DNA from: Halorussus sp. MSC15.2
Lineage (GTDB): Archaea > Halobacteriota > Halobacteria > Halobacteriales > Haladaptataceae
Direction of reading: 5' to 3'
Assembly: GCF_010747475.1 (NCBI RefSeq)
Contig: NZ_VSLZ01000001.1
Coordinates: 310,001 to 374,000 of the forward strand
DNA length: 64,000 bases
Each line of letters opens with the position of its first letter. Position 1 is the stretch's first letter. The notes under the pieces were generated by a model. The model worked only from the letters and a program-made list of their open reading frames with translations, searched no databases and was not told the DNA's origin. Position numbers and translations under genes: made by a program. Of this stretch, positions 6,854-55,751 are shown one piece after another.

Positions 6854-7231
6854 ATGGTCCGCGACCCGCTCGCGACCGAGGACTCCCCGGAACTTCAACC
6901 CGTCCTCGACGCCTTGGACGACCCCGAATGCCGACGCATCGTCCGCCAACTCGACGAACCCATGACAGCAAGCGAAATTTCCACTCAGTGTGACATCCCG
7001 ACCTCGACCACGTACCGGAAGCTAGAGCGACTCACCGACGCGTCGATTCTCTCGGAGAAGACCGCTATCAGGACCGACGGTCACCACACCTCCGAGTACT
7101 CGCTGGCGTTCGAGGAGGTCTCGGTGTACCTCGACGAGGGCCGCCAGTTCGAGGTGTCCATCTCCCGCCCGACGCAGTCGGCCGAAGAGCAACTCGCGGG
7201 CCTCTGGGCCGAGGTCCGCAAGGAGACCTGA
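6854..7231 (+). CDS. ArsR-like winged-helix transcriptional regulator
   Basis: 125 residues from ATG 6854 (MVRDPLATED); a longer frame from 6761 would include the TATA-like element near 6822. Residues 15-85 are a winged helix of the type common in haloarchaea. It starts VLDALDDPECRRIVRQL, and the recognition helix lies near CDIPTSTTYRKLERL. A C-terminal effector or dimer part of 40 residues follows. One base separates it from the small membrane protein at 7233, so they form a two-gene operon. This pairing of a wHTH with a DUF7521-like membrane protein recurs in haloarchaea, and it may control its partner. Confidence 0.85.
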   Translation: MVRDPLATEDSPELQPVLDALDDPECRRIVRQLDEPMTASEISTQCDIPTSTTYRKLERLTDASILSEKTAIRTDGHHTSEYSLAFEEVSVYLDEGRQFEVSISRPTQSAEEQLAGLWAEVRKET

Positions 7232-7232
7232 G

Positions 7233-7508
7233 ATGGTTCACGTCACCTCCACCGTCGTCGCGCTCAAGACGATAACGCTCGTGCTGGGCGGTCTCATCAC
7301 CTACTTCGCGTTCAAGGCGTACCGCCGGACCGGGGCCGCCGCGCTCAGGGCGCTGGCGCTCGGATTCGGTACCGTCACGCTCGGGTCGCTGCTCGCGGGC
7401 GTCGTGGACCGCCTGCTCGTCACCACCGGGTCGGTGGCGCTCGTGGTCGAGAGCGCGCTGACCGCGGTCGGGTTCGCGATAATCCTCTACTCGCTGTACG
7501 CCGAATGA
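7233..7508 (+). CDS. Small three-helix membrane protein (DUF7521-like)
   Basis: 91 residues with three hydrophobic helices at about 7-25, 38-57 and 66-88, separated by short charged loops (KAYRRTG, DRLL). There is no enzymatic motif. It starts one base after the stop of the wHTH gene and must be translationally linked to it. The pair may act as a membrane-linked sensor and regulator, which is inference from gene order only. Confidence 0.75.
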   Translation: MVHVTSTVVALKTITLVLGGLITYFAFKAYRRTGAAALRALALGFGTVTLGSLLAGVVDRLLVTTGSVALVVESALTAVGFAIILYSLYAE

Positions 7509-10598: not shown

Positions 10599-10862
10599 CT
10601 ACCAGATAGTCGTCAGCGTGACGCCGCCGTCGGTGACGGTCTCGAACTCGTAGCCCCTGTCCTCGAGTTTGGGGTAGAGGTGCTGTGGTGCCCGGTCGTT
10701 GACCTGCACGAGGACGGTCCCGTCGGGGAGGTCCGCCAGCGTTTCGAGGGTCTCGGTCAGCGGTTCGGGCGGTCCGAGTTCCCGAACGTCGAGGACCTCG
10801 CGCGGTCGGTCCGCCGGTGCGTCGGTGCGCTCGCTCGCTCGTTCGGCGAAGTCGGTCTGCAT
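10599..10862 (-). CDS. DUF2249 domain protein (first of three stand-alone copies)
   Basis: 87 residues from ATG 10862; an upstream start at 10907 would run into the palindrome at 10901. A 25-residue variable N-terminus leads into the DUF2249 core (SirA/TusA-like fold). It starts VLDVRELGPPEPLTETLETL and continues VLVQVNDRAPQHLYPKLEDRG. There is no catalytic cysteine of the TusA kind. The palindrome CGAACACGTTCG ends exactly 38 bases before the ATG. DUF2249 genes occur beside nitrite and NO reductase genes in many prokaryotes, but their biochemical role is not settled. Confidence 0.85.
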   Translation of the reverse strand: MQTDFAERASERTDAPADRPREVLDVRELGPPEPLTETLETLADLPDGTVLVQVNDRAPQHLYPKLEDRGYEFETVTDGGVTLTTIW

Positions 10863-10900: not shown

Positions 10901-10912
10901 CGAACACGTTCG
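10901..10912. promoter_or_regulatory. Palindrome CGAACACGTTCG, site 1 (38 bp before DUF2249 gene)
   Basis: Perfect 12-bp palindrome. Its left end lies 38 bases upstream of the minus-strand ATG at 10862. In leaderless archaeal genes this puts it directly upstream of the BRE/TATA region, the usual place for an activator. Confidence 0.8.
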
Positions 10913-10943: not shown

Positions 10944-10955
10944 CGAACATGTTCG
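10944..10955. promoter_or_regulatory. Palindrome CGAACATGTTCG, site 2 (HTH regulator promoter)
   Basis: With one more matching base on each side (CCGAACATGTTCGG). A TATA-like ACTTATGG begins 6 bases downstream, and the HTH gene starts 42 bases after the site. The order site, TATA, start is the clearest of all copies in the window and argues for activation, possibly autoregulation. Confidence 0.8.
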
Positions 10956-10997
10956 GGAAGACTTATGGGTTCGTAGCCTTCGACGTTCTACATAGAG

Positions 10998-11621
10998 ATG
11001 CCAACAGCGAAGTTACACATCACGCTTCCCGAGGACGTGTGGGTCTCCGAAGTTTCGACGGCCCATCCGGACGCCGAGTTCCGAGTGCTGGCGGCGTTTC
11101 CGGCCGAGGAGACCGGCGTCGGACTGCTGGAGATAACGTCGTCGGACCTGCGCGCGGTCGTCGGCGACATGGACGACCGCGAGGACGTCGTCCGCCTCGA
11201 CATCCAGCAGGCGTCCGAGGAGTCCGCGCTCGTCGAGTTCGAGACCACCGCGCCGCTCCTGCTGTTCTCAGTGCAGGAGTCCGGACTCCCGCTCGAACTC
11301 CCGTTCGTCATCGAGGACGGCGAGGCCGAGGTCGAAATTACGGCCTCGCGCGACCGCCTCTCGGCGTTCACGGCGCAACTGGACGCGTTCGGGATGTCGT
11401 TCGACGTGGAGTACGTCCGCGAACTGGTCAACTCCGAGAGCCTGTTGACCGACCGCCAGCGCGAGTTGCTGAACGCCGCGGTCGAGGAGGGGTACTACGA
11501 CACCCCGCGGGAGTGTTCGCTGACCGAACTCGCCGAGGAGGCCGGCGTGGCGAAATCGACCGCGAGCGAGACGCTCCACCGCGTCGAGGAGAAAATCGTC
11601 AAGGAGTACGTGGAGGGGTAG
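10998..11621 (+). CDS. Bat-type HTH_10 transcriptional regulator, candidate regulator of the denitrification island
   Basis: 207 residues. Residues 1-150 form the N-terminal domain typical of haloarchaeal Bat/DmsR/NarO-type regulators. The C-terminus carries the HTH_10 motif with LLTDRQRELLNAAVEEGYYD, then LTELAEEAGVAKSTASETLHR. The known oxygen-responsive NarO of Haloferax volcanii depends on four N-terminal cysteines. This protein has a single Cys, in the HTH region, so it cannot sense oxygen the same way. Its own promoter carries the palindrome shared by nar, nirK and NO reductase genes. It is either a secondary regulator of that regulon or a target of NarO. Confidence 0.85.
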   Translation: MPTAKLHITLPEDVWVSEVSTAHPDAEFRVLAAFPAEETGVGLLEITSSDLRAVVGDMDDREDVVRLDIQQASEESALVEFETTAPLLLFSVQESGLPLELPFVIEDGEAEVEITASRDRLSAFTAQLDAFGMSFDVEYVRELVNSESLLTDRQRELLNAAVEEGYYDTPRECSLTELAEEAGVAKSTASETLHRVEEKIVKEYVEG

Positions 11622-11634
11622 ACCGCACCGACGT

Positions 11635-12159
11635 TCACGTCTGCAGAAAGTTTCGGAAGGCGAGAGCAGTCAGTCCGAACCAGATGGGGAGCCAAATCGG
11701 ATAGAGGTCGCTCGTCCCCGGTGACCCGCCGAGAAACAGGAGGACGACTGCCGCCGGTATCGAAGACGCGAGTCCGATGACCGGAACCGCTATCGCGACG
11801 GCACCGCCGAGAAGCGTCGCGACGGTCATCTTCTCGTACCACGCGCCACCGTTCCAAGACTCCTTCAGGTCAGTCCACGTCACCTCCGGGGTTCCCTCTC
11901 GGCCGTTCCCCGCGCCGTCTCCGGTGGGAGCCGTCTTGTCGCTCCCGTGGATGGCCTCGTGACAGCGTTTGCAGTACGTCGTCAGATTGCTCATCCGGTT
12001 CGACCCGCCCTTGCTCAACGGGACGCCGTGATGCGCGTGTAGCTCTGCGCTTCCGTGGGGGCCGCCTCTCGCACCGCAGTTCTGACACGTGTAATTGTCG
12101 CGTTCGTACACTCGCTTTCGCCGCCTCCCCCAGTCAGACGGATAGTCCGAAGCGGGCAT
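11635..12159 (-). CDS. HNH endonuclease-domain protein with C-terminal membrane helices
   Basis: 174 residues from ATG 12159. Residues 10-70 form an HNH nuclease with four zinc cysteines (CQNCGARG and CKRCHEAIH) and the catalytic HAHHGVPLSKGG motif. Two or three hydrophobic helices follow (residues about 112-170), so the nuclease domain would be tethered to the membrane. HNH plus membrane helices is unusual for a homing or restriction nuclease. Role unknown. It is convergent with the HTH gene and follows the hemG-like gene on the same strand by 35 bases. Confidence 0.8.
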   Translation of the reverse strand: MPASDYPSDWGRRRKRVYERDNYTCQNCGARGGPHGSAELHAHHGVPLSKGGSNRMSNLTTYCKRCHEAIHGSDKTAPTGDGAGNGREGTPEVTWTDLKESWNGGAWYEKMTVATLLGGAVAIAVPVIGLASSIPAAVVLLFLGGSPGTSDLYPIWLPIWFGLTALAFRNFLQT

Positions 12160-12194
12160 CGTCTCGACGATGAGACAGTATCCGCAAAAACGTT

Positions 12195-13466
12195 TCAGTT
12201 CGCCCGGGTCTCCGCCAACTCCTCGGCGGTCGCCTTCGCCTCCCGAATCCGGCCGGGAATCCCGGCCCGCGCGGTGTAGTTCGTGCAGAGATGCACGCCC
12301 TCCGGCGTCGAAATCCGGTCCAGTGCTTCCCAACTCCGGTCGTAGGCTGGCATCCCGCGACGGAGTCGGTGGACCGACAGCGCCCGCGCCGACGCGCCGG
12401 TAATCTCCTCGAACTCCTCGGTCGCGACCGACGCCAGTTCGTCGTCGCTCCACTCGACAATCTCGGGGTCGCGCGACCCGCCGAGGTAGCAGGTGTAGAC
12501 GCCGTCGCGGTCGAGCATGCTCGCGTTCCACGTCGCGCCCAGCGTCCGGAACGCCTCGTCGTACTGGACCTGATACCCCGCGCCGGTCAGGTCGGTCTCG
12601 GAGTGGAGGTGGACGACGGCCTGCGGATTGTAGTTCAACTCCCGGAGCGCGTCCGCGGAGTCGGGCGCGAGGTCCCCGAGCAGGTCGGCGGTCACGTCCG
12701 CGGGCGTGGTGACGACGAGTTCGTCCACCGTAGTTTCCCCCGCCGACGTTTCGAGGACGAAGTCCGAACCCTCTCGTCGAATCTCCCGCACGGGCGTCCC
12801 GAGTCCGACGTTCTCGTCGTGCGCCTCGGCGAGCGCCTCCGGGAGTCGCTGGAGTCCGGCGTCGAACGAGACGATGGGCGGGGCCTCTCGACCGGCCAGC
12901 ACCTTCCGAGCGACCGACGTCAGGACGCTCCCCTCGATTCCCGCCCCGTCGAGGGCCTTCGCCAGCGAGTACTCCATCGGCATCTCGCCGGGATGGGAGC
13001 CGTAGATGCCGCCGTAGAGCGGGCCGAAGTAGTAGCGCGCGACCTCCGAACCGAACGTCCGGGTCAGGAACTCTTCGACGGTCTCGCCGTCTCGCGCCGG
13101 GCCGGTGAGCGGTTCAAGAAGCACCCGGAACTTCCCCGGCCACGAGAGCAGGTCGGTCGTCACGGCCTCCCGCGGCGTCTGGGGAACCCGCCGGAGTTTG
13201 CCGTGGTGGTAGACGTACAGCGGCGGGTCCGCGGCCTCCCTGAGTTCGTCGTCCAACTCCAGCGACTCGACCAGTCCTCGGATGCTCGGGGTCAGTCGGG
13301 TGCGCTGGGGTCCGAAGTCGAGAATCCGACCTTCGACCTCTCGGCTCCGGACGACGCCGCCGGGTTCGTCGTCGGCCTCGAAGACGACGCTCTCGACGCC
13401 CGACTCCCGGAGGTAGTGGTGTGTCGCCAGTCCAGTGATGCCGCCACCGACGATGCCGACGCTCAT
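12195..13466 (-). CDS. hemG: FAD-dependent protoporphyrinogen/coproporphyrinogen oxidase-like protein
   Basis: 423 residues of the HemG/HemY (CgoX) amine-oxidase fold. The N-terminus [19 protein letters not shown] is the FAD dinucleotide motif, followed by E-x-D-x-x-GG ([12 protein letters not shown]). The family C-terminal FAD segment is seen near [16 protein letters not shown]. It oxidises a porphyrinogen late in haem synthesis. The palindrome at 13505 ends 38 bases before the ATG. This places the gene in the same regulon as the haem-rich NO reductase and the haem-b subunit of the nar-type enzyme, consistent with extra haem demand during denitrification. Confidence 0.85.
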
Positions 13467-13504: not shown

Positions 13505-13516
13505 CGAACGTGTTCG
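13505..13516. promoter_or_regulatory. Palindrome CGAACGTGTTCG, site 3 (38 bp before hemG-like gene)
   Basis: Perfect palindrome; 38 bases separate it from the minus-strand ATG at 13466. A weak TATA-like GAGTAACG lies about 8 bases downstream on that strand. The stop of the upstream gene at 13518 is only 2 bases away, so this promoter makes hemG independent of it. Confidence 0.8.
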
Positions 13517-13517
13517 G

Positions 13518-13832
13518 TCACTCTCGCTCGGCGAACAGGGCGAGCGCGGCGTCGGCGTCCGCCTCGTCGAGGTTCGACGCCCATCGTTCGACCAGCGCGT
13601 CGGTGATGCTCGCAGAGAGGGACGCGACCGCCCGACGCTCGGCGGGCGTCACCTCGCCGCAGGTCTCCAGACGCCCGAGCGCGGTTTCGAGTTCCCGGCG
13701 GCGGACGCGCTCGGCCCGGTCACGGATTCGCTCGGCGACCTCTCGCTCCTCCGCCTCCCCGCTGGGCGTCCGGCCGCCGCCCGCGTCGGTAGTCTCGCCG
13801 CGGTCCGCGTTCGGTTCTGCGAGTCGAGTCAC
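13518..13832 (-). CDS. Stand-alone HemA (glutamyl-tRNA reductase) dimerisation-domain-like protein
   Basis: 104 residues. The core [20 protein letters not shown]... and [21 protein letters not shown] resembles the C-terminal helical dimerisation domain of glutamyl-tRNA reductase, without the catalytic Cys domain or the NADPH domain. A GTG start at 13832 is chosen over the ATG at 13892 because the palindrome 13871-13882 then ends exactly 38 bases upstream, as for neighbouring genes. It could bind HemA as a regulator of haem synthesis, or be an unrelated helical protein. It lies directly upstream of the hemG-like gene, which favours the haem link. Confidence 0.7.
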
Positions 13833-13870: not shown

Positions 13871-13882
13871 CGAACGTGTTCG
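13871..13882. promoter_or_regulatory. Palindrome CGAACGTGTTCG, site 4 (shared divergent operator)
   Basis: This single site serves two divergent leaderless genes. There are exactly 38 bases to the minus-strand GTG at 13832 and exactly 38 to the plus-strand GTG at 13921. The symmetry supports both start codons and argues that the bound factor can activate in both directions. Confidence 0.8.
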
Positions 13883-16771: not shown

Positions 16772-17287
16772 TCACTCCACGACGATTGCGCCTTTCATCC
16801 CCATCGCCTTGTGGGGCGTGCAGTAGTACTTGTGGGTGCCCGAACTGGAGAACGTGTGCGAGAACGTGTGGCCCTCCTCTTGGGTCTGCTCGCTCTCGAA
16901 GTCGCCGCTGTCGGCGACGACGTTGTGGAGGCTCCCCTTACCGGTCCACTCCCAGACGACCTTGGTGTCCTTCGACACCTTGACCGCGGCGGGACCGAAC
17001 GCGAAGTTACCGCCGTTGCCCTTCGCACCGACCTTCACGGTCACCTCGGACTTGCCGGTCTCGTCCACGACCCCGTCGAAGTTCGAGGTGTTGTCGAACC
17101 AGCCGCCGAAGTCGGTCGAACCGGAACCGCTCCCGCCGGAGCTATCGCCGGAACCGCCGTCGCCGCTCGTTTCGCCGCCGTCGCCGGAGCCACCACCGCC
17201 GCTCGAACAGCCAGCGATAGTTGCGCTCGCCGCGCCGACAGCCATCGTCTTCAACATCGTCCGTCGGTCGAGGGTATCTCGGTTCAT
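16772..17287 (-). CDS. Halocyanin (blue copper lipoprotein)
   Basis: 171 residues from ATG 17287 (MNRDTLDRRTMLK); an in-frame ATG 12 bases upstream is possible. The Tat-like RRTMLK is followed by lipobox TIAGC, then a long Gly/Ser linker. The cupredoxin domain from about residue 68 has His in GSLHNVV and the Cys-His-Met copper ligands in YYCTPHKAMGMKG. It carries electrons on the outer membrane face, probably to copper nitrite reductase (38250) and other respiratory enzymes. TATA-like ATTTATG lies about 17313 on its strand. The palindrome at 17357 is 69 bases from this start. Confidence 0.9.
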   Translation of the reverse strand: MNRDTLDRRTMLKTMAVGAASATIAGCSSGGGGSGDGGETSGDGGSGDSSGGSGSGSTDFGGWFDNTSNFDGVVDETGKSEVTVKVGAKGNGGNFAFGPAAVKVSKDTKVVWEWTGKGSLHNVVADSGDFESEQTQEEGHTFSHTFSSSGTHKYYCTPHKAMGMKGAIVVE

Positions 17288-17356: not shown

Positions 17357-17368
17357 CGAACGTGTTCG
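17357..17368. promoter_or_regulatory. Palindrome CGAACGTGTTCG, site 5 (38 bp before the 17407 gene)
   Basis: Perfect palindrome 38 bases before the plus-strand ATG at 17407. The divergent halocyanin gene has its TATA-like element about 40 bases away on the other side, so an effect there is possible but less canonical. Confidence 0.8.
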
Positions 17369-17406: not shown

Positions 17407-18069
17407 ATGCCCGGCTTCCCTCGACCCTTCGCCACCGAGGACGCGGACGACGAGACGTTCGACGAGTACGACGAGTTCCGTCCGGACCACCTGCCCGAAC
17501 CGGGACCGTTCCTCGACGGGGCCGACGTGCTGACCGGCGACGAACACTGCTCGTTCCACCGACTCACCCGCGAGATATTCGAGGAACGGGGCGTCTACGA
17601 CGCCACCTTCGGCTACAACCTCGCCCGACTCAACCTCGACTCCCGGCATCCCGACGCGGGGTGGCGGTACGCCCGCCTCCCCGACGAGTCGGGAGACGGC
17701 GCGTCGGGCGACGCCGTCGAGAGCGACGTTTCCGACGAAACCGACGCCGGCGACAGCGACGACGCCGAGGTTCTGCTCGCGGAGTTCACCCCCACGACCG
17801 AGTTCTGCCCGCAGAGCGACAGCCTCACGGTCGGGGCGTTTCGGGCGTGGAACGGTCTGAGCGACCGCCACGGCTACGACCGGGTGTCGGTGTCGGTCGC
17901 GCCGATGCACCACCAGAGCACCGAAATCAACGACAAGTTGCGGCGCTTGGAGGCGCGGCTTCGGGACGACGAGGAAGACCGAGAGGAGTACGACCGGATG
18001 GAAGAAGCGGACCAGCGGAGCGCGGACATCCACCGCAGCGGCGACGACGGTCCCGCCGCCCCGTTCTGA
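17407..18069 (+). CDS. Uncharacterised acidic protein of the denitrification regulon
   Basis: 220 residues, very acidic. I do not recognise a named family. The conserved-looking parts are GDEHCSFHRLTREIFEERGVYDATFGYNLARL (quoted here only as positions 44-75, key residues HC and FH) and LAEFTPTTEFCPQSD followed by APMHHQSTEIN. Two Cys and several His residues in these blocks could bind metal. A Ser/Asp-rich stretch near residues 97-120 is likely a flexible insert. It is preceded by the palindrome at exactly 38 bases and followed after one base by a membrane protein gene, forming an operon. Confidence 0.75.
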   Translation: MPGFPRPFATEDADDETFDEYDEFRPDHLPEPGPFLDGADVLTGDEHCSFHRLTREIFEERGVYDATFGYNLARLNLDSRHPDAGWRYARLPDESGDGASGDAVESDVSDETDAGDSDDAEVLLAEFTPTTEFCPQSDSLTVGAFRAWNGLSDRHGYDRVSVSVAPMHHQSTEINDKLRRLEARLRDDEEDREEYDRMEEADQRSADIHRSGDDGPAAPF

Positions 18070-22265: not shown

Positions 22266-23266
22266 TCTCTGGCCCTCCAGTAGACGACCGTCCACGTGAG
22301 CAGCGTGGTCACCACGAGTCCGATTACCCAGTTACTGACCGAGTGTGTCATCCACACGCCCTCGGACTGGCCGCCGGACCCGCCCGACTCGGCCGACTGT
22401 CCGGACCCGCTCGAACTGCTCGACCCGCTGCTCGCGTCGCTCATCGCCCACTTTCCGGTGTCGAGTTTGGTGAACTGGAGCGTGAGCGACTTCTGGCCGT
22501 TCACCTCGTCGGCGCTCCCGTTCCACACCGCGAACGCGAGGTAGACGTTCTTGCCTTTCGTGAGGTCGGCGTCGAACTTCCCCTCGGTGCCGTGTTCGCG
22601 GACGAACACCACCGACCATCCGTCGTCGGTGCGCTCGGCGCTCGCCCGGACGTTCTGTCGGGGCGCGTGGGTCAGCGACCCGTACCCCTTGGCGTAGTAG
22701 TTCTGGGCGAGTCGCTCGGTCGGCGGCGTCGAGAGCGGGTTCCCCGCGGCCTGCCCCGGTTGGGTCTCCTCCTCGGGGTGCGGGTACGCGTACATGTCGC
22801 CGCTCTTCGACGCGTCGGGCGACTGCCAACTCGCGCGCCAGTACCAGATGTCCACGGGCTTTCCGGCCGCGCCCATCGTGATGGGCGGCTTGTCGCCGGT
22901 CCGGAGCATCACCGCGGCGGCGTCGCTGTAGTTGTTCGGCGCGCCGATGTCGGCGTCGTTCGTCGGGTCGGCCCACGTCAACCGGAACGCGGTGTGGGTG
23001 TCGTTGTGGACGGTCTGGACCGTCAGTTCGTCGGTGCTGCCGCCGCCGAACGGCGGTGCCATCTGCTGTTTCGACAGCGAGACCGTGCGCTCGGGCGCGT
23101 CGCTCCACTGGGACGACGCAGGGTCGCTGGGCACCGACTCGACCGCCATCGCCGGTTGCGTGCCGCTCGTGACCGCGGCCGTGACCGCGGTCTGGGCGGC
23201 CACCAGTACCGCGACGACGACCACCGTGACGACGGTCGCGCGCCGGGCAGCGTCGCGGTCAGGCAC
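22262..23266 (-). CDS. narC: Haem-b gamma subunit of the molybdoenzyme (ethylbenzene-dehydrogenase-like, NarC/DdhC type)
   Basis: 334 residues. The N-terminal hydrophobic helix (residues 10-32) is a signal or anchor, and a C-terminal helix precedes VYWRARE, so the domain is outside and membrane-tethered. The central domain resembles the haem-b gamma subunits EbdC, DdhC and SerC, which hold haem with Met and Lys. Segments FRLTWADPTNDADIG and AFAVWNGS are family-like. Its order after NarJ matches chlorate, selenate and dimethylsulfide dehydrogenase operons. It overlaps narJ by eight bases. It would pass electrons between halocyanin or a quinol and NarH. Confidence 0.8.
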   Translation of the reverse strand: MPDRDAARRATVVTVVVVAVLVAAQTAVTAAVTSGTQPAMAVESVPSDPASSQWSDAPERTVSLSKQQMAPPFGGGSTDELTVQTVHNDTHTAFRLTWADPTNDADIGAPNNYSDAAAVMLRTGDKPPITMGAAGKPVDIWYWRASWQSPDASKSGDMYAYPHPEEETQPGQAAGNPLSTPPTERLAQNYYAKGYGSLTHAPRQNVRASAERTDDGWSVVFVREHGTEGKFDADLTKGKNVYLAFAVWNGSADEVNGQKSLTLQFTKLDTGKWAMSDASSGSSSSSGSGQSAESGGSGGQSEGVWMTHSVSNWVIGLVVTTLLTWTVVYWRARE

Positions 23267-24083: not shown

Positions 24084-25264
24084 TCACGGTTGGTTGGTCC
24101 ACTTCTCGCCCTCGCGGACTTCGAGGTCCTCCTCGATGGGCATGTCCACGACTTTCTTTCCTTTCCGGTCCCAGCCTTCACGCGGTTCTCCTTGACGTTG
24201 TACGTCTCGATGAGTCGGGTCGTCGCGCCGAACAACTGGAGGACGCCGAGCAGGTGGTGGCTCGGGTCCCGGACGCGCTGCTGGATGATTTTCACCGACT
24301 CCTCGTAGGTGCTCCCGGGCCAGTCGTTGCGCTTCTGGTCGGTGTTCGGCGTGAACATCTGGGTCAGGAACTCCGGCGGCACGTGGTACGGCGGCATGTA
24401 GAACACCTGCGGCCGGGTGCCGAACTGCGGGTAGAGCGGCAGCGCGACCTTCTCGTCGGACTTGGCGAGGTAGTTGATGGGACTGCGGCCCTTCGCCGCC
24501 GACTTCTTCCCGTTGGGGTGGCCCGCCTTCGGCCCGCGGTTGATGTTGCCGTGGAGTCGCGTCTTGCCGATGCAACTGCTCACGCACCGGGGGACGTTGC
24601 CCTCCTCGATGCGGGGGAAACAGCCGACCGGCTTCTCGGAGACGCCGGTCTCGGGGTTGTACATCGGCTTGTGGTACGGACAGGCCTTCACGCACTTGCG
24701 GTAGCCCCGGCATCGCTCTTGGTCGAGCAGGACGATGCCGTCCTCCGAGCGCTTGTAGATGGCCTTCCGGGGGCACGCGGCGAGGCAGGCCGGGTTCTTG
24801 CAGTGGTTGCAGAGCCGCGGCAGGTAGAACTGCCAGATGTCGTGGTACTTCTCGTTCTGGGGGTCGGACTCGACAACCTCGTCTTCGGGGTACTCGCCGT
24901 GGACTTGGTCGTCGCCGAGCGCGGGGTACTCCCACTCCTCCTTCTGGGCGACGTACCCCTTCACTCGCTCGCCCTGCTCGGCGGCCTCGAAGATGGTCTC
25001 CTCGGCACCGAGGTCGTCGAGCAGGCGCATGTCCCACCCCATCGGGTAGCCGCCGTACGGCTCCGTTTCCACGTTCATCCACCACATGTACTCCTCGCCC
25101 TTCCCGCTGGTCCACGTGGACTTACAGGCGAACGAGCAGGTGTTGCAGTTGATGCACCGGTTCGTGTTGATGACCATCCCCCAGTGCCAGTCGCGCTCCT
25201 CTTGGCGGTGTTCGTAGGGGTAACTCTGCTTGCGGCCGAGTTGCGGATTGTACACTTCTGGCAT
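24084..25264 (-). CDS. narH: Iron-sulfur beta subunit of the molybdoenzyme (NarH), frameshifted near 24174
   Basis: About 393 residues when one missing base in the GG run near 24174 is restored; otherwise the frame runs on into narJ. Four cluster motifs are visible: CINCNTCSFAC, CNHCKNPACLAAC, CRGYRKCVKAC and CFPRIEEGNVPRCVSSC. In the third, Tyr replaces one Cys (CRGY-x2-C). NarH and related subunits have Trp there and bind a [3Fe-4S] cluster, so the same is expected. The restored C-terminus ends in EGEKWTNQP at 24084. Its ATG overlaps the narG stop by one base. It passes electrons from NarC to NarG. Confidence 0.88.
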
Positions 25265-28200
25265 CAGTCGTCACCTCTCGTTGTCGTCGTTCCGCTGGTC
25301 GTCCCGCTCGCGCCGCCCTTCGACTGGAGCGACCCGCCGATGTAGTCCTCGACGAGGTCGTCCTTCCGGGCGTCGCCGGGCCACCAGTCGGCCTCCTCGT
25401 ACTTCTCGACGGTCACGAGGTCGTCGCGGTTCACCCCGGTGGGTGCCCAGACGGTCTCCTCGTAGCCGTGTTCCAGTTCCGCGCCGTGCCACGAGATGTC
25501 CTCGCCGACCTTCTCGGAGACGTTCGGGTCGCCGAACACGGACTTGTGGACGAGGTCGTCGGTCTCTTGGCCGGGGTCGAGCCAGATGTTGGTCGTCGTG
25601 TTGAACCCCTTGACCTCGTCGTCGCCCTTCTCTTCGTCGTCGGGGAAGTGCTGGGGCCACCAGCCGTGCCAGAGGGTCAACTGGCCCATGTCGCCCGCCT
25701 TGCCGGGGCGCTGGCGCTCGCTGAGCATGGCCCTGACCACCGTCCCGCCGCGCTTGCCGGAGATGCGCACGTAGTCGCCGTTCTCCACGCCGATGTCCGC
25801 GGCGTCGCTCGGGTGCATCTCCACGAACGCCTCGCCGAGCGGCGGGGCCTCGCTGGTCTCGCCCTCGGCCTCGGGGAACGAGAAGTCGTCTATCAGTCGC
25901 TCGGTGCCCTCCGGGTCGGCGCTGGTCGAACCGAAGTCTCGCGCCGACCAGATGAGGTTCCAGTCGGTCATCCCCCACGAGGAGTGGGTCCGGTACTTGC
26001 TGTGGGGCGTGTTGTAGTAGAACTGGTAGCCCTCGTCGTGGTAGAGGGGGTTCTCCTGCTCGCCCGCCTCGGGCCACTTCTGGTTGACGCCGTAGGGCGT
26101 CCCCTCGACGCTCTCGATGTGGTCGAGGTCCTCGCGCCCGAGGTCCACGAACCGGTCTTCCTCCTTGTGGAACTCCATCCGGCCGGTCTTGGTGTAGAAC
26201 GGCCGGTCGTCGTGGACCTGCGAGTAGAACGGGACGCGCGGGTAGGTCTTGAGGTTCAGGCGCTCGGGACCGTCTTCGAGGTCCTCCACGTCGATGTCCT
26301 CGGTCGTGATGCCGTGGTCGAGCGTCTCCTGAATGTACTTGCGGACGTCGCCGTCCTCGTCGAGGAACTCCGAGAAGTACGACCGATACGAATCGACGTT
26401 GCGCTCCTCGCGCGGAATCTTCTCGTCCAACTTCTCGGCGACCATCGCCAGCACCTCGCCGTCCTGCTTGGTGTCGTAGATGGGGTCCATAATCCCGTGG
26501 TCCATCGTGATGAACGGGTTCTCCGGACCCACCGTGATGTCGGGGTACTCGCACTCCAGCCACGAGGGGGCCGGAAGCACGATGTCCGCGTGCCGTGCGG
26601 AGTAGGTCATGTGGATGTCCGAGACGATGAACAACTCGTTGGACGTGTCCGGGTGCTTCGTGAAGTTGTTGACCACGTGCTCCTGATGTTTGGTCTGGTT
26701 CAGGAGGTTGCAGTTCATCGTCCACAGGATGGTCGGCTTGGACATCGTGTACGTCTCCGCGTTCTTCGGCATCACCGGCTCCTCGGCGTCGCCCTGCGGC
26801 ACGAGGTCCATGTCCCGGTCGAAGTCGCCCCGAATCTCGTGGGGGTCCAACTGCTCGCCGCCGAAGAACGCGAAGGCGTACCCCGGATACATCCCGTGGG
26901 CCGAGTGACCGTCGGGGTTGACGTAGTGGGGGTAGCCGTCCAGTAGCTCTATCTTGTACTGGCCCGAGTAGTTGTAGTAGCCCGACCCCGGCTTGCCGAC
27001 GTTGCCCAACATCGACTGGACGAAGAAGATGGACCGCTGGAGTTCGGAGTTGCCGTGGAACCAGTGGTTGATACCCTCGCCGGTGAACCACTGGCCGTTC
27101 TCGGCGGCGGCGAACTCCGCGCGGTCTTCTCGATGGCCTCGGCCGGGACGGTCGTTATCTTCTCGACCTGTTCGGGCGAGTAGTTCTCCAGCACGTTGCG
27201 CTTCTGGCGCGAGAAGTCGGTCTCGACCGTGACGCTCGAACCGTCGGCCAGTTGCAAGTCGGTTTTGGCGTCGAGTTGCGGGGTGGTCGGCATCTCGTCG
27301 CCGACCTGCTCGCGCGTGACCGCCTTCGGGTTGCCGTTCTGGTCCAGCACTACGAAGTCGCCCCAGTCGTTCTCCTCGTGCCGTTTGTCGCCCTCCGGCG
27401 GTGCCTCGTGGTCGTCGAACACCTCGTGGGCGCGGAGGTACTTGTCGTCGTCCTCGCGCACCAGCAGGGGGAGGCTGGTGAACTTCCGCACGAAGTCGGG
27501 GTCGTACAGTTCCTCGCTGATGATGACGTTGGCGAACGCGAGCGGAATCGCCGGGTCCGACCCCGGACGGATGGGGAGCCAGCGGTCGCACTTCTGGACG
27601 GTCGGCGAGTAGTCGGGGTAGATGCCGACCATCTCGCCGCCGCGCTCGCGCATCTCTTGGAACCAGTGGTTGTCAGCCAGCTTGTTGTGAATCAGATTCT
27701 TCCCCTGAATGATGGTGTAGTCGGACTTGCGCCAGTCGGCCGCGTCGGCGTCGGAGGTCTGGTACCCCGTCGTGATGACGTGGCCCGGCGGCAGGTCGGC
27801 GTACCAGTCGTACTCGGTCCACTCGCACCCGCCGAAGATGGAGGCGAGTCGCCGCCCCGCGCCGTGGCGCGTGATGAGTCCGTCGGCCTTGATGGCGTTG
27901 AAGATGTGGAACCGCTTGTTGTCCTCCAGACTCGCCATCTTCTCGGCGATGAGGTCGGCCGCCTCCTCCCACGAGACGCGCTCGAACTCGTCCTCGCCGC
28001 GTCCCTCGGGATTGGGGTCGTCTGGGTCCCAGCCCTTCCGGACCATCGGGTACTTGATGCGACTCGGCTCGAAGGTCCGGCGGTGGAGCGTCAACCCCTT
28101 CATGCACCCGCGGGGGTTCCAGTTCTGACTGACGTTCGCGTCCTCGTACCCCGACGGGCCGACGCTCTGGTCCTCGTTGTGGTAGACCTGCTCGGCTCGA

Positions 28201-28460
28201 ATCGGCACCCCGTTCTTCATGTAGAAGTTGAGGGCGCACGACTGGGTGCAGTTGGGGTGACAGACCGTCCAGTCCACCTCGTCGTAGGCGTAGATGTCGT
28301 GGTAGACCTGTTCCCAGTCCCGGTTCGGATAGGACTTCAGGGGGTTGTCCACCTCGGTCACGGGTTCGACGCTCTGGGTCGCCCCCCAACTGCTGGAGAG
28401 GAGCGTCCCCACCGCGCCGGCCCCAGCACCCCGGACGAAGTCGCGCCGAGAGAGACTCAC
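25264..28460 (-). CDS. narG: Outward-facing type II DMSO-reductase-family catalytic subunit, nitrate-reductase type (NarG); frameshifted near 27117
   Basis: About 1065 residues with one missing base near 27117 restored (GCGCGG[G]AG). The GTG start at 28460 has a Shine-Dalgarno GGAGGTG 6 bases upstream. Tat signal SRRDFVRGAGAG means export. The Fe-S motif reads CHPNCTQSC with a distal Cys in PRGCMKG, so Cys stands where E. coli NarG has His. ADLPPGHVITTGYQTSDADAADW-like residues (about 230-250) fit the Asp-Mo pocket of type II enzymes. Denitrification neighbours favour nitrate; chlorate, selenate or dimethylsulfide cannot be excluded because the operon has an EbdC-type gamma subunit and no adjacent Rieske/cytochrome b genes. 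Confidence 0.85.
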
Positions 28461-28577: not shown

Positions 28578-28589
28578 CGAACACGTTCG
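28578..28589. promoter_or_regulatory. Palindrome CGAACACGTTCG, site 6 (nar operon promoter region)
   Basis: The site is 117 bases from the narG GTG and 80 from the ATG of the divergent binding protein at 28670. On the nar strand a TATA-like TTCCTAT follows 6-8 bases after it, which would give a leader of about 80 bases ending in the GGAGGTG ribosome site. So nar mRNA is leadered, unlike the 38-base genes. Confidence 0.7.
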
Positions 28590-32020: not shown

Positions 32021-32032
32021 CGAACACGTTCG
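32021..32032. promoter_or_regulatory. Palindrome CGAACACGTTCG, site 8 (37 bp before cupin gene)
   Basis: Perfect palindrome 37 bases before the ATG at 32070, one base short of the usual spacing. No good TATA box lies between them, which suggests dependence on an activator. Confidence 0.8.
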
Positions 32033-32069: not shown

Positions 32070-32453
32070 ATGGTCGCGACCGACTTCGACGCCGAACGCG
32101 AGTACGACGACGAACAGTTCTCGGCGCAGTCCGTCTTCCGGAGCGACCGGATGAAGGTCGTCCTCGGCTACTTCGAACCGGGCCAGTTCATCCCGGTCCA
32201 CGCCCCCGACAGCGACGTGGCGATTACGGTCCGAGAGGGCCGGGGCGTCGTCCGCGACGGCGACGACGAACACGCGGTCGGGCCGGGCGACGTGGTGGTC
32301 GTGCCCGCGGGTGAGGACCGCGGCGTGAAGGCCGACGCCGACCGGCGTCTCGAGGCCACGCTCGTCACCGCGCCCCCGCCGACCGACGCCGAACACGACC
32401 CCGTTCGCGAGGGGTTGAAGCGCGGCGAGTTCGACCCGCGCGGAGGCGACTGA
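32070..32453 (+). CDS. Cupin-domain protein of the denitrification regulon
   Basis: 127 residues. One cupin barrel shows VLGYFEPGQFIPVHAPDSDVAI (motif 1, with His and Asp) and GPGDVVVVPAGEDRGVKA (motif 2). The normal three-His-one-Glu metal site is not complete. The ligand is unknown; metal or small-molecule sensing is common in such single cupins. A monocistronic unit, controlled by the palindrome at 32021. A second small cupin lies at 33685, downstream of a DUF2249 gene in the same regulon. Confidence 0.85.
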   Translation: MVATDFDAEREYDDEQFSAQSVFRSDRMKVVLGYFEPGQFIPVHAPDSDVAITVREGRGVVRDGDDEHAVGPGDVVVVPAGEDRGVKADADRRLEATLVTAPPPTDAEHDPVREGLKRGEFDPRGGD

Positions 32454-33385: not shown

Positions 33386-33397
33386 CGAACACGTTCG
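33386..33397. promoter_or_regulatory. Palindrome CGAACACGTTCG, site 9 (41 bp before DUF2249-cupin operon)
   Basis: Perfect palindrome 41 bases before the ATG at 33439. The bases after it (GGACAACCG) also match those after site 7 at 29469, which suggests a conserved BRE/TATA-like part beyond the palindrome itself. Confidence 0.8.
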
Positions 33398-33438: not shown

Positions 33439-33666
33439 ATGCCGAGACTAGACGTCCGCGAGATTCCGCCGCCGGAACGTCATCCGAAGATACACGACGC
33501 GTTCGCCGAACTCGACAGCGGCGAGGTCCTCGAAATCGTCAACGACCACGAACCCAAGCCGCTGTTCTACGAGATGCAGGCCGAGGTCGAGTCGTTCGAC
33601 GCCGACAGCTACGAGGTCGAACGCGAGGACGCCCAGAAGTTCGTCGCGAAGTTCCCCAAGCAGTAG
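33439..33666 (+). CDS. DUF2249 domain protein (third stand-alone copy)
   Basis: 75 residues, a minimal DUF2249 domain starting LDVREIPPPERHPKIHDAF, then VLEIVNDHEPKPLFYEMQ. The VNDHEPKPL block matches VNDHDPSPL in the Mrp fusion at 19410 more closely than the other copies do. No Cys. A cupin gene follows after 18 bases, and NO reductase is encoded after that on the same strand. Expression by the palindrome at 33386. Confidence 0.9.
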   Translation: MPRLDVREIPPPERHPKIHDAFAELDSGEVLEIVNDHEPKPLFYEMQAEVESFDADSYEVEREDAQKFVAKFPKQ

Positions 33667-34560: not shown

Positions 34561-34572
34561 CGAACACGTTCG
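34561..34572. promoter_or_regulatory. Palindrome CGAACACGTTCG, site 10 (NO reductase promoter region)
   Basis: Perfect palindrome 67 bases before the ATG at 34640. The only A/T-rich core element (near 34603) lies some 32 bases after it, more than for other copies. Either the TATA is further upstream than it looks or the site works at a different distance here. Confidence 0.75.
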
Positions 34573-34639: not shown

Positions 34640-36936
34640 ATGAGAGTCAAACGTAGCACACTCGGCAAGATACTCGCGGTCGTCTTCGTCCTCAACCTGG
34701 CCGTGATGGGTGCCGGCGCGTGGTACTCCTACCAGCAGGCCCCGCCCATCCCGAAAGAGGTCGAAGGGCCGAACGGTCAGACTATCGTGAACGCCGAGCA
34801 GGTCCGAGAGGGAAAGACCATCTTCCAGTCGGACGGGATGATGAACCACGGGTCGATACTGGGTAACGGCGCGTACTACGGTGAGGACTACACCGCGGAC
34901 ACGCTCGACTTGAAGGTGAAGTTCATGCGCCAGTACTACGCCCGCGAACAGTACGACACGTCGTCCTACGGAAGCCTCACGGATAGCGAACGGGCCACCG
35001 TGGACGTGGCGGTGAAGTCGGACCTCACCGACGGCGACCCGGGACAGCGCATCCAGTACTCCGCCGCCGAGGCCTACGCCCACGAGCAGGTCCGGCAGGT
35101 GTACGTCGAGCGCTACCACGAGGGGAGCCACGAGCGCGGCGTCCCCGCAGGGATGATAGAGAGCGAGGAGGAGGCCCGGCGCTTCGCCGACTTCGCGCTC
35201 TGGACGGCGTGGATTTCCCACACCGACCGGCCCGGCGCGGACCACAGTTACACCAACGAGTGGCCCTACCAACCGGCGGCCGGTAACGACGCCACCGGCG
35301 CGGCCATGACGTGGAGCGTCATCGCCATGATACTGCTCGTCGCCGGGGCCGGGTTCGGCGTCTGGCTCTACAAGTCCATCGAACTCCCCGAACCCGAGAC
35401 CGAGGGCGTCTCGATTCCGCGGCCCGACGAGGTGAACCTGTTCCCCGGGCAGGCCGCGGCGCTACGGTTCGCGGTCGTCGGCGCGGGACTGTTCCTCGGA
35501 CAGGTGTTGCTCGGCGGGCTACTCGCCCACTACTACATCGAGCGGGCGGACTTCTTCGGACTCGGTGAGTTACTCGGCGTCAACTTTCTCCAGCTAATCC
35601 CGTTCTCCATCGCCAAGACGTGGCACCTCGACCTCGGTATCCTCTGGATAGCCACCCTCTGGCTCGGCGCGGGGCTGTTCCTCCCGCCGCTGTTGACCGG
35701 ACGTGAACCCCGTAAGCAGGGGGCGTGGATAAACCGCCTGCTCGGCGTCCTCGTCGTGGTCGTGGTCGGTGCCCTCGTCGGCATCTGGCTCGGCGCGAAG
35801 GGCTACATCGACGGCGCACTCTGGTGGATAGTCGGCAACGAGGGGCTGGAGTACCTCGAAATCGGGCGGCTCTGGCAGGTCGGCATCCTCGTCGGCTTCC
35901 TCGCGTGGGCCGCCCTCGTTGCTCGCGGTCTCAAGCCCCTGCTCGACCGCGAACCCAAGTGGGGTCTCGCCCACATGATTCTGTACGCGGGCGGGTCCAT
36001 CGCCCTGCTGTTCTGTGCGGGCTTCCTCTACACGCCCCAGACCAACATCGTCGTCACGGAGTTCTGGCGCTGGTGGGTCGTCCACATGTGGGTCGAGGGA
36101 GCCTTCGAGTTCTTCATCGTCGCGCTGGTCGGCGTCACGCTGGTCAGCATGAATCTGCTGACCAAGCGGTCGGCCGAGAAGGCCGTGATGGTGCAGGCCC
36201 TGCTCGTGATGGGTACGGGCGTCATCGGCGTCTCGCACCACTACTGGTGGGTCGGCCAACCCGACGTCTGGGTGCCCATCGGGAGCGCGTTCTCGACGCT
36301 CGAACTCATCCCGCTGGTGTTCATCCTCTACGAGGCCTTCGGCCAGTACCGCGCGATGTCGAGCGGCGGGCAGTCGTTCCCCTACACCCTGCCGTTCATG
36401 TTCATCATCGCCAGCGGTATCTGGAACTTCGTCGGCGCGGGCGTGCTGGGATTCTTCATCAACCTGCCGTTCATCAACTACTTCGAGCACGGCACCTACC
36501 TCACGGTGGCCCACGCCCACGCGCGATGTTCGGCGCGTTCGGCTTCCTCGCGCTCGGCATGGTGACGTACATGCTCCGCATCGCGGTGCCCGAAGCGAAG
36601 TGGTCCGGGACGAACCTCCGGCGGGCGTTCTGGGCGTGGAACGTCGGTCTCGCGCTGATGGTCGGCGTCAGTCTGCTCCCGGTCGGCTTCCTCCAGTTGG
36701 AGGTCGCGTTCACCCAGAGCTACGACGCCGCCCGGAGCCTGTCGTTCTATCAGGGCGACTTGGTCCAACTGCTGTTCTGGCTCCGGATGCCGGGCGACAC
36801 GCTGGTCATCCTCGGGACGGCCATCTTCGGCTACGACGTGGTGAAGAAGGTGCTGGCCCGCGGCGAGACCACGCCGTCCGACGCTCCCGGCGACGCGCCC
36901 GTCTCGGCCGAGTCGGTGGTCGAGAGCGACGACTGA
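34640..36936 (+). CDS. norB: Quinol-dependent nitric oxide reductase (qNOR), frameshifted near 36523
   Basis: About 765 residues with one missing G restored near 36523 (GCG[G]CGATG). The N-terminal extension with one helix and an outside domain to residue 215 is the qNOR hallmark; it replaces the separate NorC cytochrome. Then 12-13 helices. Haem and iron ligands visible are His in TWHLDLGILW, HMWVEGAFEFF (His and the catalytic Glu), SHHYWWVG and the restored VAHAHAAMFG. It reduces two NO to N2O with quinol electrons. The ATG at 34640 fits a short leader. It is needed alongside NirK, which makes NO. Confidence 0.92.
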
Positions 36937-38157: not shown

Positions 38158-38169
38158 CGAACACGTTCG
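38158..38169. promoter_or_regulatory. Palindrome CGAACACGTTCG, site 11 (nirK promoter)
   Basis: Perfect palindrome 80 bases before the nirK ATG. This distance, and the ribosome site before the ATG, group nirK with nar and NO reductase as leadered genes, in contrast to the 38-base accessory genes. Confidence 0.78.
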
Positions 38170-38249: not shown

Positions 38250-39314
38250 ATGCCCGCAACCAATCGTCGCACGGTCCTGCAAGGTATCGGTCTCGGTGGC
38301 GCGGCCACCCTCGCCGGGTGTTCGACCCGCTCCGCCCCGAAAACGACCCAGACCCAGAAGGCCATGAACAAACAGAAACAGAAGACCGTCCAGCGCGTCG
38401 CCGCGGACCCGACAGACATCCCCGACCCGATTAGCCGCAACCGACCGAAGGAGGTGGACGTGACCCTCCGGCCCGAGGAGGTCACGGCCGAAATCGAGGA
38501 CGGGGTCACGTTCAACTACATGACCTACAACGGGCAGGTTCCGGGTCCGATGATTCGGGTCCGGAAGGGTGACACCGTGAACCTCACCTTCGAAAACCCG
38601 GCCGAGAACGACATGCCCCACAACGTGGACTTCCACGCCGCGGCCGGACCGGGCGGCGGTGCCGAGGCCACGATGACCGCGCCGGGCGAGACCGCCCACC
38701 TGAAGTTCAAGGCGACCTACCCCGGGGCGTACATCTACCACTGCGCGGTCCCGAACATGGACATGCACATCTCGGCGGGCATGTTCGGTCTCATCCTCGT
38801 CGAACCCGAGGAGGGACTCCCCGAAGTGGACCACGAGTTCTACTTCGGCCAGCACGAGATATACACCGACAAGCGCGCGGGCGAGACGGGCAAGCACAAC
38901 TTCGACCACGAGGCGATGAAGCGCGAGGAACCGAGCTACGTCGTGATGAACGGCGAGAAGTACGCCTGCACGCCCGACAAGTACGGCGCGCCGACGGTGA
39001 AAACCGGGGACACCGCGCGGGTGTTCTTCGTCACCGGCGGCCCGAACCTCACCAGTAGCTTCCACCCCATCGGCAACGTCTGGGAGAAGCTCTGGCCCGA
39101 GGGGTCGCTGACCACCCGTCCGCAGACCCACATCCAGACCAAGCAGGTCGCGCCGGGTAGCACCACGATAGCGACGATGAACTTCCCCGTTCCCGGGAAC
39201 TTCAAACTCGTGGACCACTCGCTGAGCCGAGTCGCTCGGAAGGGCTGCATGGCCATCGTGCAGGCCGACGGGAAGGAGCGACCGGACCTCTTCGACCCCG
39301 AACCCGGGAACTAA
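38250..39314 (+). CDS. nirK: Copper-containing nitrite reductase (NirK)
   Basis: 354 residues. The Tat-like NRRTVLQGIG and lipobox LAGC suggest an exported lipoprotein. Two cupredoxin domains follow. Type 1 copper ligands are seen in HNVDFHAA and HCAVPNMDMHISAGM (Cys, His, Met). Type 2 copper His residues lie in the same blocks and in the second domain at SFHPIGNVW. The catalytic Asp is in the DMPHNVDFH segment. It reduces nitrite to NO outside the cell, with electrons from a halocyanin such as that at 16772. A Met/Lys/Gln-rich linker precedes the fold. Confidence 0.95.
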   Translation: MPATNRRTVLQGIGLGGAATLAGCSTRSAPKTTQTQKAMNKQKQKTVQRVAADPTDIPDPISRNRPKEVDVTLRPEEVTAEIEDGVTFNYMTYNGQVPGPMIRVRKGDTVNLTFENPAENDMPHNVDFHAAAGPGGGAEATMTAPGETAHLKFKATYPGAYIYHCAVPNMDMHISAGMFGLILVEPEEGLPEVDHEFYFGQHEIYTDKRAGETGKHNFDHEAMKREEPSYVVMNGEKYACTPDKYGAPTVKTGDTARVFFVTGGPNLTSSFHPIGNVWEKLWPEGSLTTRPQTHIQTKQVAPGSTTIATMNFPVPGNFKLVDHSLSRVARKGCMAIVQADGKERPDLFDPEPGN

Positions 39315-51342: not shown

Positions 51343-52350
51343 ATGAGCCTGAAACCAACTCCACCGCACGATGCGAAGAACCGCTACCTCAACGACAAGA
51401 AGCCCGGCGTCACCAAGAAGACAATCAAGAACTACCGCACCACGACCCGACAGTTCTGTGATTGGCTAGACGAGCAGGGCATCACGGACCTCAACGACCT
51501 TGACAGCGAAGTCATCCAGCGGTACAAGGAACACCGCCTGTCGAACGTGAAGGTCATCACGGCCCGACAGGACATGATGACGCTCAAGCAATTCATCGAG
51601 TTCTGCGAACACATCCAAGCCGTCCCTCGGGGCATGGCCGACATGGTGCGGATACCCTCGGTCAACGAGGACGACGAGGTTTGTGACGACCTCCTGACCC
51701 GGGATGAAGCCGTCGCAATGCTGGACTTCCTCAAGAAGTACGAGTACGCGAGTAACCGCCATGTCACGCTCCTCATTCTCTGGAAAACGGGAATGCGAAT
51801 GAGCGGGTTACGGGCACTCGACCTCGGTGACTTTGACGAGGCTCGGCCCGCGCTCGAACTCCGCCACCGGCCAACATCGGGAACACCACTCAAGAACAAA
51901 GAGAAGAGTGAACGGGATGTTCTACTGACTCCCGAGACGGCTGAGGTAGTCCGTGACTACGTGGAGCAGAACCGGAACGAGGTAAGGGACGAACACAACA
52001 GAAAGCCGCTCCTCACGTCCAAGAGTGGCCGCGTCGTGGAAACGACGATTCAACGGTACGTCTACACGGCCACCCGTCCCTGCTACTACAACGGCGGGGA
52101 GTGTCCATTTGACCGTGACCCGGACACCTGCGAGGCCATGTCTTGGAATGCCTCTTGCAAGTGCCCGGGGTCAGTTAGTCCCCATGCCCTACGACGGGGG
52201 TACGTGACCGCCGCTCGGAACGCGGGACAGCCGAAGGACGTAACTGGAGAGCGCGTGAATATGAGTGGGAAGGTGCTTGACAAGCACTATGATAAGGGAA
52301 CAAGTGCGGAGAAGGCTGAGAGACGACGAGAACACATTAGGGATATCTAA
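51343..52350 (+). CDS. Tyrosine recombinase/integrase of the tRNA-Thr element
   Basis: 335 residues. The N-terminal SAM-like core-binding domain (TIKNYRTTTRQFCDWLDEQG) precedes the catalytic domain from about residue 110. Catalytic residues visible are Arg in TGMRMSGLRALDL, HALRRG (His-x-x-Arg) and the nucleophile Tyr in LDKHYDKGTS. An insert with CYYNGGECPFDRDPDTC and CKCPG has several Cys and may bind zinc, a feature of haloarchaeal XerC/D-like integrases. It recombines the 34-base sites at 51225 and 55602. A perfect hairpin terminator follows its stop. Confidence 0.95.
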   Translation: MSLKPTPPHDAKNRYLNDKKPGVTKKTIKNYRTTTRQFCDWLDEQGITDLNDLDSEVIQRYKEHRLSNVKVITARQDMMTLKQFIEFCEHIQAVPRGMADMVRIPSVNEDDEVCDDLLTRDEAVAMLDFLKKYEYASNRHVTLLILWKTGMRMSGLRALDLGDFDEARPALELRHRPTSGTPLKNKEKSERDVLLTPETAEVVRDYVEQNRNEVRDEHNRKPLLTSKSGRVVETTIQRYVYTATRPCYYNGGECPFDRDPDTCEAMSWNASCKCPGSVSPHALRRGYVTAARNAGQPKDVTGERVNMSGKVLDKHYDKGTSAEKAERRREHIRDI

Positions 52351-52370
52351 AAACGGTAAAATACCGTTTT
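52350..52370 (+). terminator. Hairpin after the integrase gene
   Basis: AAAACGGTA-AAA-TACCGTTTT, nine-base perfect arms, overlapping the last base of the stop codon and ending in a T run. It lies between convergent genes and may serve both. Confidence 0.65.
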
Positions 52371-52395
52371 AGTAACGCTAAAATTTGTAACGCTC

Positions 52396-52563
52396 CTAAA
52401 ATCTTCGTTGCCCCAACTCGTCTAAGGGGATAACTTCAAGGCAGTCTTCGCATTGCACTTTGTTTTTTGACATCACCTGAAGGCCGTCCTCATATTGTGT
52501 TCCGATTCTTCCACCGTGTTTGTAGTCCCATTCGTGGCCACACGCTGGGCACAACTCTGGCAC
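52396..52563 (-). CDS. 55-residue zinc-ribbon protein of the element
   Basis: Read from the sequence: GTG start at 52563, TAG stop at 52396-52398. The product begins MPELCPACGHEWDYKHGG and ends in VIPLDELGQRRF. CPACGHEW and CEDC give the four cysteines of a zinc ribbon. An in-frame stop lies shortly upstream, so it cannot be much longer. A TATA-like TTATATGG is near 52610 on its strand. Such tiny zinc fingers are common in haloarchaeal plasmids and viruses and probably bind nucleic acid or protein. Confidence 0.7.
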   Translation of the reverse strand: MPELCPACGHEWDYKHGGRIGTQYEDGLQVMSKNKVQCEDCLEVIPLDELGQRRF

Positions 52564-52838
52564 ATCGGCATTTTTTTGGTCGTGCCATATTCTCCATCAC
52601 TGCGGCAACCACCATATAATTAATCATTATGTTATTTCTAAAACCATACTGAGGCGTCATACTTGTGAGATATTCAATAGGATAATCCTATAGCCGAAGT
52701 AGCGCACTCCTTTGCCCGAGAAGGAGTGCGGGGCATAGTAAGAAGACCGGTTCCTCAACAGCAAACGCAAATGCAACAACCTTTCAGATTTACAACTGGG
52801 ATTTCAACCTATGGACTGTTACGAATGTTCTGTTTTGC
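52564..52838. other. AT-rich gene-free stretch with a 10-bp stem-loop
   Basis: CGCACTCCTT (52703-52712) and AAGGAGTGCG (52721-52730) form a perfect stem with an 8-base loop. No gene is seen. The adjacent GCCGAAGTAGCG at 52693 recurs inverted at about 55681, beside the tRNA. Confidence 0.45.
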
Positions 52839-53408: not shown

Positions 53409-53552
53409 GCTCGTGTATTCTATCCCCTTTATCGCTTACCGCTAGATATAGAGTTCTAACAGGATTCTACTAGTAGATGTTGTCCATTGAACGCGCCGAT
53501 GGCGTTCTTCCGTATGGAAAGGACTGCTGTTTGGACAAACTGTGGTAAGACC

Positions 53553-55601: not shown

Positions 55602-55635
55602 AGCCTAGGCCGGGATTTGAACCCGGGCTCTCGTC
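55602..55635. repeat. Right attachment site inside tRNA-Thr
   Basis: 34-base copy identical to 51225-51258, here as part of the intact tRNA gene. Integration left the tRNA whole. Confidence 0.88.
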
Positions 55636-55673
55636 CTTACCAAGGACGCGCTTTACCTCTAAGCTACCCAGGC
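55603..55673 (-). tRNA. tRNA-Thr (anticodon GGT)
   Basis: 71 bases on the minus strand. Acceptor arms GCCTGGG and CCTAGGC pair (one G-T), D-arm GCTTAGAGGTAAAGC, anticodon arm CGTCC-TTGGTAA-GGACG, T-arm CCGGG-TTCAAAT-CCCGG. The loop gives anticodon GGT, reading ACC. No intron. The CCA end is not encoded. It is the integration target of the element to its left. Confidence 0.95.
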
Positions 55674-55751
55674 GCACTCCGCTACTTCGGCGCGTTTCAT
55701 GGTATGCCCGGAAACCTCTTTAGGCGTTTCGATTCCCGTCGGGGGAGACGG

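Follow-up and report, generated by a model that had tools for sequence, protein, structure and literature searches.

The 207-residue protein encoded by the intact open reading frame at 10,998–11,621 (forward strand, ATG start; P0001, here termed REG) is likely to be the primary transcriptional activator of a regulon of nitrite/NO genes and to regulate its own gene, both in Halorussus and in most haloarchaea that carry norB or nirK. The reading was developed from a 64,000-nucleotide stretch of a Halorussus genome of 4.4 Mb, hereafter the window, and from comparison with orthologous loci and other haloarchaeal genomes. Taken together, the comparative evidence shows the gene itself, a palindrome with its conservation and placement, linkage to norB, nirK and DUF2249 genes, and independence from NarO; it sets the palindrome apart from both NarO and DmsR, ties it to the REG family, and points to this one orthologous family, rather than NarO, as the reader of the palindrome. 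Binding of the palindrome by REG is quite likely, and activation rather than repression is very probable; a signal of NO or nitrite, as opposed to O2, is a tentative proposal, held with slightly less than even confidence. If REG is the reader, denitrification in haloarchaea is under the control of two distinct arms, NarO/nar on the one hand and nitrite/NO on the other, which is relevant to the release of NO and N2O from hypersaline environments.

REG contains an HTH_10 domain (PF04967) at residues 150–202 (E 3e-20; 72.2 bits vs a gathering cut-off of 23.1), which upholds the Bat-type assignment made in an earlier, sequence-only reading of this DNA. That reading had also pointed to the lack of the NarO cysteines; indeed, there is no Cys in residues 1–172, the sole one, C173, being located within the HTH, and among 80 orthologs the N-terminal 148 residues contain none in 75 and a single one in five. 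According to an AlphaFold2 model (pLDDT 86.7, pTM 0.61), the predicted sensor part is built from two successive beta-alpha-beta-beta-alpha-beta (ferredoxin-like) modules, residues 2–72 and 76–142, followed by the helical HTH region. Because the N-terminal residues invariant in the family (A4, P11, W15, G40, T83, P102) include neither Cys nor His, an Fe-S or thiol sensor in REG appears unlikely. A fold search of the PDB gave weak matches only, the best sensible one being Ta1207 (5m86_A, TMq 0.47), and a profile search of PDB sequences returned nothing below E 0.2, such that no ligand can be inferred; no ligand site is given by the N-terminal fold, and Pfam detects no PAS, GAF, CRP/FNR or Rrf2 domain in the protein.

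The REG promoter carries a perfect palindrome of 12 bp with CGAAC half-sites, CGAACATGTTCG (10,944–10,955), whose 5' end lies at −54 from the ATG at 10,998; exactly 6 bp past it, across the spacer ggaaga, follows the TATA-like CTTAT (10,962–10,966, forward strand). The order of palindrome then TATA described earlier is therefore real, and CTTAT or a one-base variant is found at exactly this distance in 15 of 16 Halorussus orthologs, in which the palindrome columns are 98% identical vs 52% for the 45-bp 5' flank. A second palindrome, CGAACACGTTCG (10,901–10,912), is placed exactly at −50 of the divergent gene for a DUF2249/TusA-like protein of 87 residues (10,599–10,862, reverse strand), so that the two sites probably serve two separate promoters, those of REG and of the DUF2249 gene. 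With up to two mismatches allowed, the window contains 19 palindrome sites vs 3.2 ± 1.7 in shuffles. Genome-wide, CGAACRYGTTCG occurs 25 times; nine GC-core sites, CGAACGCGTTCG, were set aside as GC-rich background, and ten of the 16 non-GC-core exact sites lie within a 27-kb island at 10.9–38.2 kb of the window. Three of the six outside the window are found at the starts of genes that could plausibly belong to the regulon: one is a paralog of the 18071 membrane gene, one encodes a CGCGG peptide, and the third start is that of a cupredoxin-type/halocyanin pair. The other three are intragenic and probably due to chance. The pattern TGTTCG-N4-CGAACA, considered as the same motif, was rejected: it has 20 window matches with up to two mismatches, a single one of them exact (22,593–22,608), which falls within one of the genes of the Nar-like operon.

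Along the island, the 5' ends of the palindromes are located 49–54 bp from the start codons of the first DUF2249 gene, REG, HemG, an ORF with a glutamyl-tRNA-reductase dimerisation domain, the 17407 gene, a cupin gene and a second DUF2249-type gene. The distance is 50 bp for HemG, a protoporphyrinogen oxidase-like protein of the amino oxidase family (site 13,505–13,516; gene 12,195–13,466, reverse), for the dimerisation-domain ORF (13,871–13,882; 13,518–13,832, reverse, start assumed to be GTG), and for the 17407 gene (17,357–17,368; 17,407–18,069, forward), the last site lying between this gene and that of a halocyanin (16,772–17,287, reverse). It amounts to 49 bp for the cupin gene (32,021–32,032; 32,070–32,453, forward) and to 53 bp for the second DUF2249-type gene (33,386–33,397; 33,439–33,666, forward). 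The palindrome stands farther upstream at the NO reductase gene norB (79 bp; site 34,561–34,572; 34,640–36,930, forward, ATG 34,640, with a NorB cytochrome-c-like domain and COX1) and at the copper nitrite reductase gene nirK (92 bp; site 38,158–38,169; 38,250–39,314, forward, TIGR02376), and one more (28,578–28,589) precedes a Nar-like molybdoenzyme operon running from 28,460 to 22,262 on the reverse strand. This uniform placement immediately ahead of the BRE/TATA region, where the TATA is often poor, is the pattern that would be expected of an activator recruiting TBP/TFB.

The norB frame changes near 36,520 in this assembly, where tblastn with Halorussus halophilus NorB yields one segment in frame 2 and another in frame 1; the gene is a single open frame in the sister species, and the break is either a sequencing error or a real lesion. 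The NarG-like catalytic subunit (25,264–28,460, reverse) likewise comprises two overlapping frames with a junction near 27,114–27,129, which are 37% and 24% identical to NarG of Hfx. denitrificans, and its operon also contains Fer4, EB_dh and NarJ-type genes. An ORF for an HNH endonuclease (11,635–12,531, reverse) sits between REG and HemG; it is absent in Halorussus halophilus, where the REG and HemG genes overlap.

The palindrome is conserved at REG orthologs from several families. Within 200 bp upstream, CGAACNNGTTCG is present in 52 of 80 named orthologs from many genera, mostly as CGAACATGTTCG at −49 to −59, and an exact upstream palindrome is missing in the other 28, including some Haloferacaceae (Halobellus). 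Across 102 ortholog loci a palindrome precedes REG in 67; autoregulation is likely. In these loci the palindrome also lies upstream of DUF2249 genes (53/77), norB (17/30), halocyanin genes (28/54), homologs of the 17407 gene (19/30) and CGCGG-peptide genes (20/42), and of nirK in merely eight of 28 linked cases. A denitrification regulon of the CGAAYATDKTYG type, with the motif in the promoters of nirK, norB, DUF2249 and halocyanin genes, is accordingly found in other genera as well. As internal negative controls, in the same 102 loci, a winged-HTH neighbour has the palindrome in two of 38 cases and a small membrane gene in none of 27, and a control pattern with swapped arms was absent upstream of all genes tested. 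One or more of norB, nirK and DUF2249 occur within about 10 kb of REG in 56 of 86 full neighbourhoods.

These controls also bear on the suggestion that the palindrome is bound by a different protein, such as a member of the family of 125-residue winged-HTH proteins (6,854–7,231) or an HTH_10 paralog, with REG as one of its targets. The winged-HTH family is found in 34 of 86 neighbourhoods and the host genome encodes 36 HTH_10 paralogs; however, the winged-HTH genes mostly do without a palindrome (the 2/38 above), several Halorussus neighbourhoods have no such gene at all, the palindrome regularly precedes REG, and members of the REG family share a near-invariant HTH motif, AKSTxSETLHRAE, from which NarO and DmsR differ. 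Another binder is therefore improbable, and REG is retained as the preferred reader. The winged-HTH gene and the small membrane gene (together 6,854–7,508, forward) occur near REG in 34 and 25 of the 86 neighbourhoods, respectively, and similar small HTH genes adjoin NarO-like genes.

The references for NarO and DmsR were taken from Hfx. denitrificans. The motif CXnCXCX7C, which marks the N-terminal half of NarO, was found in an HTH_10 protein encoded divergently from narGH (L210), identified as NarO of this species; a DmsR-type protein is encoded upstream of dms (L211). REG resembles NarO in size (about 211 residues in NarO), in its HTH_10 domain (42% identity over 52 residues) and in its denitrification context, and DmsR in size and HTH_10 domain (49% over 53 residues). 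Of the NarO/DmsR type proposed earlier, the shared HTH of about 50 residues stands, but kinship beyond it is not supported: BLASTP aligns the HTH alone, REG has no CXnCXCX7C, and the DmsR homolog has this motif, another N-terminal region and no promoter palindrome. NarO adjoins the nar operon, whereas REG has DUF2249 and HemG as neighbours and, farther away, halocyanin, norB and nirK. In Hfx. denitrificans, neither the nar/narO intergenic region nor the dms promoter has a site matching at 10 of 12 positions, in contrast to six perfect palindromes in its 20-kb REG/norB locus.

It had been suggested that REG acts as a second tier under a Cys-containing NarO, which would bind the palindrome and induce REG, both then acting on nirK and norB in a feed-forward loop. 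In its favour, Hfx. volcanii needs NarO to denitrify, and a similar motif was reported for haloarchaeal denitrification promoters (Hattori 2016, cited in PMC10062603). The search of the Halorussus genome for a true NarO with the Cys motif came back empty, with C.C.{7}C in 0 of 36 HTH_10 proteins and no match to the NarO N-domain at E ≤ 1e-6, a domain present in 139 of 195 haloarchaeal genomes. As the palindromes are present here with no detectable NarO, a second tier below it does not fit this genome, and NarO was dismissed as palindrome binder in it. Neither the palindrome-free nar/narO region of Hfx. denitrificans, set against the six sites at its norB cluster, nor the nar promoter of Hfx. 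mediterranei, whose activity is not lowered by motif mutation (PMC10062603), agrees with the arrangement, and a single autoregulated regulator fits better than a feed-forward loop. The second-tier arrangement is accordingly regarded as very unlikely.

The phyletic distribution points the same way. In 167 near-complete haloarchaeal genomes, with REG called at E ≤ 1e-45 and the analysis stratified by family, REG is present in 77 of 79 genomes with norB and in 82 of 85 with nirK, the stratified odds ratios being 56 (p 1.4e-8) and 14 (p 8e-7), respectively. Along with the island sites, these figures support the link to nirK, norB and NO/nitrite metabolism seen from the letters alone. NarO-type domains track neither gene in the same genomes (odds ratios of 0.7 and 0.8, neither of them significant), and REG is present in every one of the 24 norB/nirK genomes that have no NarO-type domain. 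Within families, palindrome density rises with REG (p 2e-4) and not with NarO (p 0.26); in a joint regression motif counts are explained by the presence of norB, the term for REG itself being not significant, since REG, norB and the motif co-occur. Among the near-complete genomes, 54 that lack nirK and 59 that lack norB nevertheless retain REG, which may therefore have a function reaching beyond denitrification.

A counterpart has been described in Hfx. mediterranei. The bacterioopsin-activator-like E6P09_00735 emerged from RNA-Seq as a candidate regulator; it is differentially expressed in denitrification, has no PAS or GAF domain, adjoins nirK/nor, halocyanin and DUF2249 genes, and carries the motif in its own promoter (PMC11218638). 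REG shares with it the HTH_10 type, the nirK/nor, halocyanin and DUF2249 setting, the promoter palindrome and the lack of PAS/GAF. Other Haloferax species, including Hfx. larsenii, have a REG ortholog (54–57% identical) in a norB/halocyanin/DUF2249 setting, and from this neighbourhood REG is probably orthologous to E6P09_00735. In the literature searched the latter is proposed as a candidate only, and no binding or deletion data for it were found; the binder of the motif is stated to be undisclosed (PMC11218638), and the regulator is also stated to be unknown (PMC10062603). To that account the present comparison would add the order-wide phyletic association, the conservation of the footprint with internal controls and the dissociation from NarO, together with the lack of a detectable NarO in the Halorussus genome and a predicted sensor fold.

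The opposite sign of regulation, REG as a repressor with NsrR-like logic that is relieved by NO or nitrite and represses its own gene, has to be weighed here. NO-responsive repressors are common in bacteria, and the additional palindrome found at −13 in some Halorussus promoters is placed where it could act in repression. The main site, however, precedes TATA and does not cover the start, and in Hfx. mediterranei mutation of the motif lowers promoter activity, significantly for nos and nor, not significantly for nir and not at all for nar, which fits activation (PMC10062603). Repression is improbable, slightly more so than a different palindrome binder. Under the preferred reading, a REG homodimer would occupy the 12-bp palindrome through its CGAAC half-sites, just upstream of BRE/TATA, and would recruit TBP/TFB at the nirK, norB, halocyanin, DUF2249, HemG and REG promoters. 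The two ferredoxin-like modules at the N-terminus would read the input without recourse to cysteines, sensing NO, nitrite or a nitrosyl/heme product either directly or via a partner, for which the product of the divergent, palindrome-bearing DUF2249 gene is a candidate. In Thermus, the DUF2249 protein DrpA is a proposed nitrate sensor (PMC11218638). The nirK, nor and nos promoters of Hfx. mediterranei rise from about 0.03–0.1 to 2–4 units with nitrate or nitrite (PMC10062603), which renders an NO or nitrite signal plausible.

With respect to other known systems, REG shares the HTH_10 domain with Bat, an activator acting upstream of TATA, but Bat has PAS and GAF domains, in place of which two ferredoxin-like modules are modelled in REG. 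In its logic of one regulator, one palindrome and one nir/nor regulon, REG would work like bacterial Dnr, Nnr or NsrR, to which it is not homologous, having neither a CRP/FNR nor an Rrf2 domain. A far broader proposition, that Cys-free HTH_10 proteins with two ferredoxin-like modules are the general NarO-independent master regulators of nitrite/NO reduction across Halobacteria, sensing NO or nitrite free of metal-thiol chemistry, possibly with DUF2249 partners, and with a radical-SAM-modified CGCGG peptide in the regulon, is speculative and rather unlikely to hold in full. A radical SAM/SPASM gene (TIGR04053; 15,637–16,767, reverse) lies downstream of the halocyanin gene, and the gene of a CGCGG-family peptide modified by such enzymes (TIGR03995) is found elsewhere in the host genome (C4:208658; L225). 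Both seem to be members of the palindrome regulon, and CGCGG genes occur in 38 of 86 REG-ortholog neighbourhoods. In Hfx. denitrificans, a paralog 46% identical to REG is encoded between nirK and nosZ (L212:9946–10608) beside degenerate palindromes such as CGAACATATTCG, which suggests that the regulator has been duplicated and that its site has shifted in the nos arm. Finally, GC content falls to 0.49–0.54 at 52,000–56,000 and 62,000–64,000 of the window, vs about 0.67 in the surroundings, which suggests that these stretches are mobile elements.
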